From contig NZ_WAGX01000004.1 in assembly GCF_008830185.1 (NCBI RefSeq), forward strand, positions 372,001 to 436,000: a DNA stretch of 64,000 bases. Direction: 5' to 3'. The position numbers were made by a program, and so were the translations under genes. The notes under the pieces are model-generated. The model had not been told where the DNA came from. It did not search any database and worked only from the letters and a program-made list of their open reading frames with translations. Within the stretch, counting starts at the first letter, position 1. Each line of letters starts with the position of its first letter. The stretch is from Candidatus Galacturonatibacter soehngenii (GTDB taxonomy: Bacteria; Bacillota; Clostridia; Lachnospirales; Lachnospiraceae). Below, piece by piece: positions 5,946 through 51,196 of the stretch.

Positions 5946-7592
5946 ATGAGCGAATTGAATGAATTATATGATTTGATTATTGTTGGAGCGGGGCCAGCGG
6001 GTTTATCGGCAGCAATTTATATGGCACGAGCAAAGTATCGGGTACTCGTTCTTGAAAAAGATAAAATTGGTGGTCAGATTACCATTACTTCTGAGGTGGT
6101 AAATTACCCTGGCATTGAAATAACTAGCGGAAACGAATTGACAGACGGTATGAAAAGGCAAGCCGACACCTTTGGAGCAGAATTTGTCAATGCCGAAGTT
6201 TTAGATATGGAATTGGAATCTGATATAAAGATTCTTCATACAACAAAGGGGAATTATAAGACATTAGGTGTTATACTGGCAGTTGGTGCAAATCCTCGCA
6301 AACTAGGATTTAAAGGGGAGAAGGAATTCCAAGGCAGAGGTGTGGCTTATTGTGCTACTTGTGATGGTGAATTTTTTACTGGCATGGAAGTCTTTGTAAT
6401 AGGTGGTGGATTCGCAGCCGTTGAAGAAGGAATTTTTTTAACCAAGTATGCCAGTCATGTAACGATGATCGTAAGAGAAGATGATTTTACTTGTGCAAAA
6501 AAAGTAGCAGATGAAGTTAAGGGTAAGGATAATATCACTGTTCATTATAATACTGAGGTGATTGAAGTAAGTGGCGAGGGAATGGTTAGCTTTGCTAAAT
6601 TTAAAAACAATCAAACAGGTGAAGAATGGACCTACGAAGCAGGAGCAGATGGGGCGTTTGGAGTCTTTGTATTCGCAGGTTACGTTCCCAATACCAAATG
6701 GCTTCCTTCGATTATTGAGAAAGATGAGCAAGGCTATATTGTTACGGATAGCAATCAAAAGACAAATTTGGATGGAGTTTTTGCGGCTGGAGATGTATGT
6801 GTCAAGAACCTTCGCCAAGTGGTGACTGCGGTATCAGACGGTGCAACAGCGGCTACTTCATTAGAAAAGTATGTATCAGATATGCATCATAAATTAAAGA
6901 TACCTGAACTAGTCGTAAACAGACAAAATCATGAGAGAGTAAAGCAAGTGAAAGAAAGCGTAGTAAGTTCAGGTGATTCTAGCAACGGCTTTTTAAGTGC
7001 AGAAATAAAACAGCAATTATCGGGAGTCTTTGCGAGATTTGAAAACAAGGTTGTCTTAAAGGCATGGTTAGATGATAGTTCCTTATCAGGAGAAATAAGA
7101 GGCTTTTTAGAAGAACTTAGTGAATTAACCGACCAGATTACGGTTATTGTACCAAAAGAAGAAGGCACACAACAACTCTTGCCTTCCATTGAAGTGTGTT
7201 ATCATGACGGCAAAAGCAGTGGAATCTCCTTTCATGGAGTGCCAGGCGGGCATGAGATAAATTCTTTTATCATTGCCTTATATAATGTTGCTGGGCCAGG
7301 TCAAGAGATAGATGCACAGATAAAAGAGAAGATAAAAGGTATTGATAAGCTGATTAATATAAAAATTATGGTGTCTTTATCATGCACAATGTGTCCAGAA
7401 ACGGTTATGGCTGCACAAAAAGCGGCATCTCTTTCCGAACATATTGAAGCGGAGATGATTGACTTGATGCATTTCCCTGAACTAAAAAAGAAATATCAGG
7501 TAATGAGTGTTCCTTGTATGGTGATTAATGATGAAGAGGTACACTTTGGTAAAAAAGGAATAGAAGAAGTGGTAAGCATTCTCACTTCATGA
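5946..7592 (+). CDS. AhpF-like disulfide reductase with C-terminal tandem thioredoxin module
   Basis: About 548 residues. The start at 5946 gives the usual short lead into DLIIVGAGPAGLSA; an in-frame ATG at 5922 is possible and neither has a strong RBS. Residues about 10-315 are thioredoxin-reductase-like: FAD motif GAGPAG, redox CATC followed by DGEFF, NAD(P)H site GGGFAAVEEG, and the second FAD motif GVFAAGDVC. Residues about 350-548 resemble the AhpF N-terminal double thioredoxin fold, with the active CTMC near residue 484 and a cis-Pro SVPCMV. E. coli AhpF has this module at the N-terminus, so the order is swapped. It probably passes electrons to AhpC. Confidence 0.85.
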   Translation: MSELNELYDLIIVGAGPAGLSAAIYMARAKYRVLVLEKDKIGGQITITSEVVNYPGIEITSGNELTDGMKRQADTFGAEFVNAEVLDMELESDIKILHTTKGNYKTLGVILAVGANPRKLGFKGEKEFQGRGVAYCATCDGEFFTGMEVFVIGGGFAAVEEGIFLTKYASHVTMIVREDDFTCAKKVADEVKGKDNITVHYNTEVIEVSGEGMVSFAKFKNNQTGEEWTYEAGADGAFGVFVFAGYVPNTKWLPSIIEKDEQGYIVTDSNQKTNLDGVFAAGDVCVKNLRQVVTAVSDGATAATSLEKYVSDMHHKLKIPELVVNRQNHERVKQVKESVVSSGDSSNGFLSAEIKQQLSGVFARFENKVVLKAWLDDSSLSGEIRGFLEELSELTDQITVIVPKEEGTQQLLPSIEVCYHDGKSSGISFHGVPGGHEINSFIIALYNVAGPGQEIDAQIKEKIKGIDKLINIKIMVSLSCTMCPETVMAAQKAASLSEHIEAEMIDLMHFPELKKKYQVMSVPCMVINDEEVHFGKKGIEEVVSILTS

Positions 7593-29672: not shown

Positions 29673-29706
29673 TTTTTAATAATATTACAAAAACTGTATA
29701 AAATAT

Positions 29707-29766
29707 AACTTATCGGAAGAAAAACAAGCACGAACGAAGTGAGTATTTGTTTTTACCCGATAAGTT
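29707..29766 (+). repeat. palindromic repeat between radC and mreB
   Basis: AACTTATCGG (29707-29716) and CCGATAAGTT (29757-29766) form perfect arms, with AAAACAA/TTGTTTT pairing inside. The same arms and the following AGCGATA...AGCGAA occur in the tandem units at 40493-40862. It may end radC transcription or structure the mreB leader. Confidence 0.8.
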
Positions 29767-29821
29767 AGCGATAAAGCGAAAGAAAAATAAAGAAAATGCG
29801 AAGTAGAAGGGGGTCAATGAT

Positions 29822-40116: not shown

Positions 40117-40329
40117 TTAAGCTTTGTTCATTGCACCAATTCTACCATATAAGCTAATGATATAAAGACCGGATAGCCCAACAATGCCGTATACGATTCT
40201 TGAAAAAACAGTCATTTCTCCAAAAAGAAATGCAACAAGATCGAATCGGAAAAATCCAATGAGGCCCCAGTTCACAGCTCCAATGATTGCAATTGTTAAT
40301 AATGTATAATCTAATCCTCTTGAATCCAT
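40117..40329 (-). CDS. DUF378 family small membrane protein
   Basis: 70 residues on the minus strand, with TAAGGAGG before the ATG at 40329. Two membrane segments (residues about 8-30 and 40-60) with the family stretch AIIGAVNWGLIGFFRFDLVA. Members are common in Firmicutes and uncharacterised. It is the only minus-strand gene for tens of kilobases. Confidence 0.85.
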   Translation of the reverse strand: MDSRGLDYTLLTIAIIGAVNWGLIGFFRFDLVAFLFGEMTVFSRIVYGIVGLSGLYIISLYGRIGAMNKA

Positions 40330-40492
40330 ATTTATTACCTCCTTAATATACTATTAGTTTGATGTTTTTTTATTTAATTATGAGTGGTAAAATATGTAAT
40401 TTTTATACGGCATTTATCTTCTTAGGTCTAATAAAAATACAATATTTAGAAAGCATTATTATTGATATAAAAGTACAAGTTGTATATAATGT

Positions 40493-40862
40493 AACTTATC
40501 GGAAGGAAAACAAGCGGCTGCGAAGCAGACATTTGTTTTACCCGATAAGTTAGCGATAGAGCGAAGCTCTAGAGCTACTACACGAAGGAACGAAGTTGCA
40601 GAGTGTAGGCTTATCGGAAGGAAAACAAGCGGCTGCGAAGCAGACATTTGTTTTACCCGATAAGTTAGCGATAGAGCGAAGCTCTAGAGCTACTACACGA
40701 AGGAACGAAGTTGCAGAGTGTAGGCTATCGGAAGGAAAACAAGCGACTGCGAAGCAGACATTTGTTTTACCCGATAAGTTAGCGATAGAGCGAAGCTCTA
40801 GAGCTATTACACGAAGGAACGAAGTTGCAGAGTGTAGGCTATCGGAAGGAAACAAGCATGAG
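40493..40862 (+). repeat. tandem array, about 3.2 copies of a 115-bp palindromic unit
   Basis: Units at 40495-40609, 40610-40724 and 40725-40838 plus a partial one to about 40862. Each unit contains three hairpins in order. The first has arms CTTATCGG/CCGATAAG, although units 2 and 3 lose a few bases of the left arm. The second is AGAGCGAAGCTCT. The third has CTACAC/GTGTAG arms (TTACAC on the left in unit 3). Units are nearly identical. There are no unique spacers, so it is not CRISPR. It lies directly before the TTG start of the HlyD-like gene. Related sequence occurs at 29707 and 48913. Confidence 0.9.
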
Positions 40863-40893
40863 TAAATCAAATTGAAATTGGGAGGAATTTTTT

Positions 40894-42279
40894 TTGGCAT
40901 CTAGAAATAATAAGGTTACAAAGTATCGCAGACCATTAAACATAAATATCGGTATAATAATCTTTGGTATTATTTTTATTTACATATTAATCAGTGTTTT
41001 TGTTTATATCGTTAATCCCAAGATTTCAGTATATGAAGTAAATAAAGGTTCTTTAGCAACAAATAATACCTATCAAGGATTGATACTTCGTAATGAGACA
41101 ATTGTCGCATGCGAGAAGGCTGGCTATGTTAATTTTTATGCCAGAGAAGGAGAAAAAATTGGAACAGGACAAACAGTCTATACAATTGACGAAACAGGAA
41201 AATTAGAACAGATTTTATCGGATACAACAGAAAGTGAAAGTACACTTACAGAGCAAGATATTAAATCACTTAAAACAGAAATTTCGAGTTTTGCAAATAA
41301 TTTTGATTCCAATAATTTTAAAAGTGTATATAATTTTAAATACGATATTGAAAATACAGTACTGGAACTAGTAAACATTAACTTGTTGAATAGTCTGGCT
41401 GATTTAAGTAGTGAAAATGCTGGTGTTTTTACCACCTATTCTGCTCCAACGGAAGGGTTGGTAGTATATTCGATAGATGGATATGAAGGTGTAACCATAG
41501 ATACACTTACAGAAGATATGTTTAACTACGAAAATTACAAAAAAACACCTGTTAAAACTTCAGATTTGGTTAATGCAGGTGATGTGGCGTACAAATTAAT
41601 TACAGATGAAGCGTGGTCGATTATCATACCATTGGATGAAGAAAAAGCAAATGAGTATGCTGAAAGAGAAACAATGAGAATTAAGTTTAAAAAGGATGGA
41701 GTAAAAGCCAACGCAGGTTTTAGTATTATTCGAATGAATAGTAAGCCATATGCAAAACTAGACTTAACCAGTTCTGTTATTCGCTATGCGACGGATCGTT
41801 TTATTGACGTTGAGTTTATGGTAAATAGTAAAGAGGGACTTAAGATACCATTAAGTGCTGTAGTTGAGAAAGATTTTTATACAATACCAGTAGAATATGC
41901 GACGCAAGGCGGCGACAATAAAAATATTGGTTTTCTACTTGAAACCTTTGATGAGAATGGTAAAAGTATGACACAATTTGTGCAACCAAACATTTACTAT
42001 TCAACGGATGAAGATTACTATGTGGAAAAACATGAATTTGAAACTGGTAATTATATCGTAAAAACAGATTCAACCGACCGATATCCAATTGGTAAAACAG
42101 ACAAGCTTACTGGTGTTTATAATATAAACAAAGGATATGCGCAATTCAAACAGATCAATATTTTATTTCAAAACGAAGAGTACTATATCGTGGAGGAAGG
42201 TACAACATATGGAATTGCTGTCTTTGATCATATTGTTTTAGATGGTAAAGCGGTTGAAGAAGATGACATTATATATTAA
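40894..42279 (+). CDS. HlyD-like membrane protein of the sepF cluster
   Basis: 461 residues, TTG start at 40894 with GGGAGGA upstream. One membrane segment at about residues 18-40, then an outer part with two biotinyl-lipoyl-like pieces: NEKAGYVNFYAREGEKI-type sequence near 75 and SDLVNAGDVAYKLI near 230. This is the layout of HlyD/RND adaptor proteins, but the helical hairpin is short and no ABC or outer-membrane partner is nearby. It heads a run with yggS, sepF and ylmH, suggesting an envelope or division role. Confidence 0.6.
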   Translation: MASRNNKVTKYRRPLNINIGIIIFGIIFIYILISVFVYIVNPKISVYEVNKGSLATNNTYQGLILRNETIVACEKAGYVNFYAREGEKIGTGQTVYTIDETGKLEQILSDTTESESTLTEQDIKSLKTEISSFANNFDSNNFKSVYNFKYDIENTVLELVNINLLNSLADLSSENAGVFTTYSAPTEGLVVYSIDGYEGVTIDTLTEDMFNYENYKKTPVKTSDLVNAGDVAYKLITDEAWSIIIPLDEEKANEYAERETMRIKFKKDGVKANAGFSIIRMNSKPYAKLDLTSSVIRYATDRFIDVEFMVNSKEGLKIPLSAVVEKDFYTIPVEYATQGGDNKNIGFLLETFDENGKSMTQFVQPNIYYSTDEDYYVEKHEFETGNYIVKTDSTDRYPIGKTDKLTGVYNINKGYAQFKQINILFQNEEYYIVEEGTTYGIAVFDHIVLDGKAVEEDDIIY

Positions 42280-48820: not shown

Positions 48821-48912
48821 AAGAGAATTGTTAGACATATAAAAAAATTACCTTTAATTTTCACTATATTTGTAGTATAATATAATTATTAAAAAGGACA
48901 CTACTTTGTTGG

Positions 48913-48966
48913 TGATAGAGCTTTGCTCTTAGCTATTACACGAAGTAAAAGAAATATCGTGTAATA
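48913..48966 (+). repeat. degenerate copy of part of the 115-bp palindromic unit
   Basis: GATAGAGCTTTGCTCTTAGC followed by TATTACACGAAG and, later, TCGTGTAATA. This matches the second and third hairpins of the units at 40493-40862 (AGAGC...GCTCT, then TTACACGAAG) with a shortened third hairpin. It lies just before the cytidylate-kinase-like gene. Confidence 0.65.
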
Positions 48967-50982: not shown

Positions 50983-51003
50983 GAGTAAGAATTAATCGGA
51001 AGA

Positions 51004-51196
51004 AGAGTTCGGGAGATACTGCAACAAGTGCATCTATCGAAGGTAGATAGATTTTTTGTGAGGCAGAGCCGAAGGTGAAGACGCAACAAACTCTCAGGCA
51101 AAAGGACCGAATTTGGACGATACTCTGGAAAGCATAGCACCGAAGAAGCAATCATAGCAAAAAATTATGAGAATCTTTCAGGTTAAAATACAGAGG
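51004..51196 (+). promoter_or_regulatory. tandem glycine riboswitch
   Basis: Two glycine aptamers in series. Aptamer I spans about 51004-51112, with the conserved GCCGAAGGTGAAGACGCAA and ACTCTCAGGCAAAAGGACCG. A short linker, TTTGGACGA, follows. Aptamer II spans about 51114-51196, with CTCTGGAAAGC, AGCACCGAAGAAGCAATC and CTTTCAGGTTAAAATACAGA. This is the classic glycine riboswitch pattern. P1 of aptamer II (CTCTG 51123-51127 with CAGAG 51191-51195) shares bases with the terminator stem that follows, so glycine binding should prevent termination (an ON switch). Confidence 0.9.

Follow-up and report, generated by a model that had tools for sequence, protein, structure and literature searches.

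REP and BIME elements are short palindromes in single-stranded form, present in many copies between genes, and a Y1 transposase (RAYT) that is linked to REPs or co-occurs with them moves them. BOX elements of Streptococcus pneumoniae, in the part of the published account used here, are modular interspersed repeats near or upstream of genes that form hairpins if transcribed; amplification is confined to the middle module, boxB, which lies between boxA and boxC, and terminal inverted repeats and target-site duplications are reported (PMC3049150). Correia (NEMIS) elements of Neisseria are described, in the portion of the source drawn on, as MITE-like, lying mostly directly upstream of genes and giving hairpin transcripts that RNase III can cut; they bring their own promoters, and one case lies immediately downstream of the mtrCDE promoter (PMC10969869).

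The repeats analysed here behave like BOX and Correia elements, lack one tested feature of each, and are without the linked enzyme of the REP/RAYT system. They share with BOX, to judge from the same part of that account, a modular build, tandem growth of modules, the lack of a transposase of their own, and a presence that varies, among strains in the case of BOX (PMC3049150). Unlike BOX, the whole 114-bp A-B-C unit is repeated, in other arrays as well, rather than a middle module alone. No target-site duplication was seen by eye. A fixed register to the -10 box was seen here and is not mentioned for BOX in the part of the account used (PMC3049150). The likeness to Correia elements, that of a short insertion before genes with hairpin transcripts, is one of description, as far as the portion of the source goes; unlike them, the copies in the window's genus appear not to bring a promoter along, TATAAT being kept there at 9 of 12 element-lacking places. 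A Correia-type feature does occur elsewhere in the family, in copies with a TATAAT at the far end. Short palindromes and many copies are common to these repeats and REP/BIME, but here there is neither linkage to a Y1 transposase nor co-distribution with one. No description of the family was found in the open-access literature searched, including the parts used of PMC8040213 and PMC2267715. In our assessment this is probably a family of short hairpin repeats, found in Lachnospiraceae, that has its left end fixed to the -10 box and spreads by insertion.

The array and its relatives in the window

Within the 64,000-nucleotide stretch of DNA that was analysed (the window), the array occupies positions 40497-40857, with a period of 114, 3.2 copies and 98% matches (Tandem Repeats Finder). 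A repeat search found the unit as 122-nt copies at 40490, 40605 and 40719 (96% to the first), with a partial fourth from 40833, so that the three near-identical tandem units and partial fourth of the original prediction were recovered. Each unit consists of hairpin A (about 60 nt), hairpin B (25 nt) and hairpin C (31 nt). A single unit folded as three hairpins, matching the three palindromes that had been proposed for it, at -45.2 kcal/mol compared with -25.4 ± 2.8 for 200 dinucleotide shuffles (z -7.1; none of the 200 was as low), and the fold of the whole stretch 40497-40910 had a z of -7.9. In the first copy, hairpin A (TAACTTATCGG ... CCCGATAAGTTA; located by fold and alignment) spans 40492-40552 and has a complete outer stem, and is followed by B at 40552-40576 and C at 40578-40608, both located by the fold. 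The outer stem of A is incomplete in unit 2 (40610-40723; A 40610-40667, B 40667-40691, C 40693-40723) and in unit 3 (40726-40837; A 40726-40781, B 40781-40805, C about 40807-40837). The partial fourth copy, delimited by the repeat searches at 40840-40857, is the 5' arm of A only (TATCGGAAGGAAACAAGC). All of these features lie on the plus strand.

The array stands directly behind a candidate promoter on the same strand, which the original prediction had overlooked, as it had the tandem relatives elsewhere in the genome. The order is TTGATA (40462-40467, five of six consensus letters), a 17-nt spacer, TATAAT (40485-40490), and then GTAAC, which is the foot of hairpin A. The TATAAT adjoins the first copy and is also present at the element-free hlyD place of two species of the same genus (G001 and G002), and the stretch TTGATATAA..GACAAGTTGTATATAAT, listed with the -35 hexamer, is shared with the element-free G001. 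Downstream is a gene of the HlyD family (PF12700; 40894-42279, plus strand). The array had been placed directly before the TTG start of this gene; it does precede the TTG, but the last partial copy ends at 40857 and the start is at 40894, which leaves a gap of 36 nt. An 89-codon frame crosses the array, yet a coding repeat was rejected because the unit lengths at other loci (98, 113 and 91 bp, for instance) are not multiples of three.

Both relatives that had been noticed in the window, at 29707 and 48913, are present. A single copy before mreB (29706-29779, plus strand) comprises hairpin A (29706-29767) and the start of B, and follows the -10-like hexamer TAAAAT (29699-29704, plus strand), which reads CAAAAT at the corresponding place of both G001 and G002, where the element is lacking. 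Before the cytidylate-kinase-like gene (cmk) there is a relic, at about 48911-48965 on the plus strand, with the B and C hairpins and no A, and TATAAT lies upstream of it at 48876-48881 (plus strand). The homologous place holds A and B in G002 and nothing in G001.

Elsewhere in the window, 51000-51195 contains tandem glycine riboswitch aptamers (Rfam RF00504, 51.3 and 38.6 bits), and these two were the only matches to Rfam 15 in the window at the gathering score. There was no Rfam match in 40300-41000 at E≤2, and eight related loci searched at E≤0.5 gave five matches, none of them in the element. A known RNA family was rejected for this reason: the element resembles the Rfam leader families in being a conserved structured leader, but matches none of them. 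Integron attC sites were also dropped, the orientation of the AAC/GTT ends being wrong for attC.

Dispersal of the copies and their register to the -10 box

When the whole genome was searched by BLAST with a single unit, 48 places matched at E≤1, made up of 15 loci plus weak matches. We also built a covariance model (R1) from 44 aligned A hairpins of several species, own copies included, and this gave 40 matches in the same genome at E≤1, 35 of them at E≤0.001, bringing the total to 17 loci. Since R1 takes in the -10 columns, its matches lean towards copies with TATAAT; the BLAST query and the 96-locus sample described below are free of that bias. Several loci have arrays with two to five copies of A, for instance five before ogg, three and a partial one before the radical SAM gene, and three full and a partial one before tRNA-Asn. 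The last of these (L036, C5:202722-203110) has a perfect TTGACA promoter, three full units and one partial, and then directly the tRNA; at 5986-6119 of the same locus there is a ribosomal L20 leader-like match under the gathering score (39.5 of 58.7 bits).

R1 also matched 10 of 61 relatives, 8 of 37 in the same family and, more weakly, 2 of 24 others. Matches at E≤1e-5 were found in 19 of 150 sampled Lachnospiraceae genomes, with up to at least 31 per genome, a lower bound because 31 candidates per genome were scored. The exact pattern of the apical loop occurred in at least 117 stretches elsewhere, and among the 80 matches listed 53 titles name Lachnospiraceae, other titles naming genera (for instance Roseburia, Butyrivibrio, Kineothrix or Acetatifactor) or only a higher rank. 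A match in Planococcus (L153), inside a frame, looks like chance, and L045, L046, L047, L048 and C8:130327 were dropped by eye as spurious, being terminators or coding.

The left end of the element lies flush with a -10 box. At 14 of the 17 own loci the six letters directly in front of the first copy read TATAAT, at one TAAAAT and at one TATGAT; at the exceptional locus, L031, the element begins at the stop codon of the gene before nifE. (This locus, at C5 near 870000, belongs to a nitrogenase cluster, with nifE at 617.9 bits, over the cut-off.) A BLAST query starting behind the -10 found 15 loci, 14 of which had a -10-like hexamer in register. When the best -35 match at a spacing of 16-18 was scored at 30 loci of three species (17 own and 13 of G001 and G002), the mean was 3.6 of 6 letters, compared with 2.62 ± 0.16 in mononucleotide shuffles, none of 2000 being as high. 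Because a copy begins directly behind the predicted -10, it must form the start of the transcript if the promoter is used. The suggestion of a transcribed leader is thereby supported, 16 of the 17 own loci starting directly behind a -10, at the junction of promoter and predicted transcript.

At all 17 own loci the next feature downstream is a frame or a tRNA on the same strand. The genes concerned are unrelated: they encode MreB, HlyD, NifE, a MATE protein, methionyl aminopeptidase, NAD diphosphatase, an RpiB-like protein, an amidase, Fe-ADH, DUF6062, Asp23, two proteins without a family and tRNA-Asn, together with radical SAM TIGR03279, ZapA and ogg, which were below the family cut-off. The original prediction that every copy sits upstream of a gene on the same strand thus held in the own genome and was less strictly followed in the family at large, the nearest downstream feature being a same-strand ORF start in 68 of the 96 loci of a wider sample.

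This wider sample was picked by the apical motif alone, and of its 117 contigs 96 were used, the other 21 having the motif too near an end. Exact TATAAT occurred 41 times in the 18-nt flush window and 16 times in the 340 nt of background (61-400 nt), a 48-fold enrichment. Sixteen ORF ends lay 12-24 nt from the core (a 13-nt flush window), seven of them at exactly 20 nt, and the following 376 nt held 45. Judged by a permissive list of -10-like hexamers, 51 of the 96 loci had one, and 33 had neither a -10 nor a flush stop. Many of these 33 follow, by eye, the T-run of a terminator (L101, L131, L142, L150, L151 and others), one (L148) follows a tRNA, and some have a reversed TATAAT (by eye). Nine copies lay inside a mechanical ORF on the same strand and 16 inside one on the opposite strand.

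Several variant types were noted in the family. Copies at L111, L112, L175 and L177 have a second TATAAT at the far end. Those at L083, L090, L122, L125, L171 and L180 have ATTATACCATG at the left, which is a -10 box facing away (the reversed TATAAT), and several of this type also carry TATAAT at the right end. A further type with the same apical loop (L106, L113, L119, L121) starts with GCGAACACAATGAGCC, and its end hairpin runs into a second -10-like box resembling the front one, like a direct repeat. At L184, copies of the post-terminator type are found at about 3911 and 5281, within and behind a ribosomal protein cluster (L1, L10 and L12, by eye).

Structure of hairpin A and comparison of filled and empty sites

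Covariation was examined in 28 aligned first copies of the genus type, using a structure derived from the same alignment, which favours it. Of 639 cells 98.9% were paired, and double changes were found in 11 of 23 pairs (66 cells). On four of five measures none of 500 shuffles reached these values; the fifth, further pair types, was reached by 78 of the 500. Sliding the structure along the alignment reduced pairing to 33-45%. One G-U pair is invariant in all 28 copies, and G-U is the usual one-sided change, indicating that the sense strand is the strand that folds. Nothing was seen in favour of a protein binding array, the alternative offered by the original prediction; with a G-U pair invariant on the sense strand, a single-stranded structure is suggested instead. 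Template switching within palindromes can produce paired changes without selection.

The five outermost pairs, TAAC N with N GTTA, adjoin the -10 box on its downstream side. All five are present in 33 of the 34 copies that were labelled as first and in 2 of the 23 labelled as inner. Each group includes one mislabelled copy, L074:2272 being really an inner copy and L205, with its hexamer further up, really a first one, and correction strengthens the contrast. The usual rule puts the start of transcription about at the base next to these pairs, and the inner units begin at that same base. The outermost pairs lie between the -10 and the predicted start, and the inner copies, which would be fully transcribed, have lost them. 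Since the pairs precede the predicted start of the transcript, folding of the RNA alone does not explain why they are kept. Copies behind stop codons also keep the outer palindrome (L031, and by eye L105, L087 and L146). This speaks for the palindrome having a function in DNA, for instance as the recognised end of a mobile element. The GAA triloops that the hairpins consistently have, a loop of great stability in DNA, may be a further lead. Two other explanations of the outer stem were considered. Copying of the outer arm from the target at each insertion was rejected, the copies of the genus being too alike (TAAC N TATC), and the idea that the transcribed 3' arm pairs with the promoter strand is weakened by the copies behind stop codons, which keep the same palindrome.

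Seven loci (mreB, hlyD, cmk, ogg, the amidase locus L042, zapA and tRNA-Asn) were compared by eye with their counterparts in G001 and G002. Five of them (mreB, hlyD, ogg, L042 and zapA) lack the element in both species, cmk lacks it in G001 and tRNA-Asn in G002, the tRNA-Asn place of G001 being left out. Exact TATAAT was kept at nine of these 12 element-lacking places in alignments made by eye; the other three are mreB in both species, with its CAAAAT, and ogg of G002, without a recognised -10. The length of the native leader agreed at three of the four loci measured: 43 filled compared with 44 and 45 empty at mreB, 34 compared with 35 at cmk, and 26 after the anchor used (31 after GTTAGC) compared with 30 and 32 at L042. 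At hlyD the filled leader is 36 and the empty one 47, a difference of 11. The kept -10 and leader length indicate that the hairpins were gained or lost exactly between the -10 box and the native leader. No target-site duplication was seen by eye at the seven compared loci; hairpin A has complementary arms. Presence and absence at homologous promoters of species of the same genus support the proposal of a MITE/REP-like mobile family, and the evidence supports taking this proposal and that of a transcribed leader as two sides of one thing.

Some places appear to record a loss. The zapA place of G002 holds TATAATGTAACTTAT and a scrap resembling a remnant, and its tRNA-Asn place holds TATAATGTAACTG; both keep TATAATGTAAC(TTAT) without the hairpin, which looks like the remnant of a loss. 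Other places are stable: the element is common to all three species before the MATE gene, and to G000 and G002 before the Asp23 gene. Before nifE, no more than the left 18 nt of A remains in G002, and behind it stand three copies of a different hairpin repeat. This second repeat family, with the core TTACTAAGTTCGAAAA..CCTCA..AAGTAAA and then ..AAGAGAG..CTCTCTAAG.., is found in or beside copies of the first at L031, L035, L215 and L216, and its three tandem copies in G002 stand between two nitrogenase-cluster genes.

Origin of the copies

We consider it likely that the repeats are a non-autonomous, hairpin-ended insertion family of Lachnospiraceae, similar in behaviour to BOX and Correia elements, that becomes a leader of mRNA. 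Copies are built of modules A, B and often C and point the way transcription runs; the left end abuts a -10 box, or elsewhere in the family a stop codon, the T-run of a terminator or the end of a tRNA, and the copy would thereby form the 5' leader of the mRNA. Copies would spread as a hairpin-ended intermediate, probably single-stranded, which an enzyme presumably encoded elsewhere would move and insert in trans. The host would mostly tolerate copies in leaders, and these may alter mRNA stability.

Arrays would grow and shrink through recombination between repeated A sequences. Most of the arrays examined end with a partial A, and in a wider set 23 of the 62 copies tested were followed within 420 nt by a repeat, at least 12 nt long, of the copy's 5' arm; the single copies at 29706, L039, L040 and L203 have no such repeat. 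Array growth needs no more than an ordinary tandem-repeat process, by recombination or slippage between copies of A.

A Y1 transposase (PF01797) was rejected as the mobiliser, being without linkage to the copies and without a matching distribution. The own genome has Y1 matches at C5:694308 and C7:173256, with the nearest element 13.7 kb away; Y1 is present in 36 of 61 genomes and the element in 10 of 61, and one genome (G024) has three copies and no Y1. The frames between neighbouring copies on four contigs appeared ordinary by eye, with no transposase apparent, and none was found near the copies, in agreement with the original prediction; nor did the search find an autonomous transposon partner. 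Phage or plasmid cargo was rejected, as there was no match in phage and plasmid collections; one viral contig (L237) carries the motif at its first bases.

Several points weigh against an insertion family: the search met neither a mobilising enzyme nor a target-site duplication, two places of G002 look like remnants of a loss, and 33 of the 96 loci of the wider sample have neither a -10 nor a flush stop. The stable places before the MATE and Asp23 genes also count against it, as a mere parasite need not show them. Together with a sense-strand structure conserved through compensatory changes, they speak for a functional structured leader RNA, whose 5' hairpins would be regulatory or mRNA-stabilising and selected gene by gene, with dispersal as a by-product; stabilising hairpins do act at the very 5' end of a transcript, which is the position of the element. 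Set against this are downstream genes without a common function, an array that leads a tRNA which is cut out of its precursor, the absence of the element at homologous promoters of the same genus at seven loci, and outermost pairs that are best kept where they precede the predicted start and are lost from the transcribed inner copies. We regard selection of a leader RNA as unlikely to account for the family.

Within the insertion reading, the element may join the melted non-template strand of an open promoter as single-stranded hairpin DNA. Such bubble insertion would account for the register being fixed, for copies always pointing in the sense direction and for perfect TATAAT boxes being preferred; we hold it to be a rather improbable, speculative form of the mechanism.

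A DNA structure linked to the promoter, in which the palindrome is extruded in hairpin or cruciform form and modulates the opening of the promoter or a DNA-binding protein, would suit an outer stem that is intact only in the promoter-proximal copy and whose arms reach the -10 box in the genus type and in other Lachnospiraceae. However, the palindrome is also kept by the copies behind stop codons, at L031, L105, L087 and L146, which have no recognisable promoter, and no partner protein is known, and this explanation seems very unlikely. Chance, or an ordinary tandem repeat (VNTR) without any special element, is scarcely credible, for although the array acts as such a repeat with a fractional last copy, the relatives dispersed over 17 loci, the fixed register to the -10 and the covariation refute it. 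The interpretation with which the analysis began is, overall, partly supported.

Short hairpin repeats are common in bacteria; for mobile DNA to be tied by its left end to the -10 box of promoters already in place would be a novel mode of target choice. If this is true, the element replaces the first nucleotides of many mRNAs and of one tRNA precursor, rewriting their 5' ends, and if bubble insertion is true, the transcription bubble itself would be the target of this mobile element. The annotation of leaders and predicted promoters is affected in a dominant gut family, in which close relatives provide a naturally occurring set of promoters that either carry or lack the same insert.
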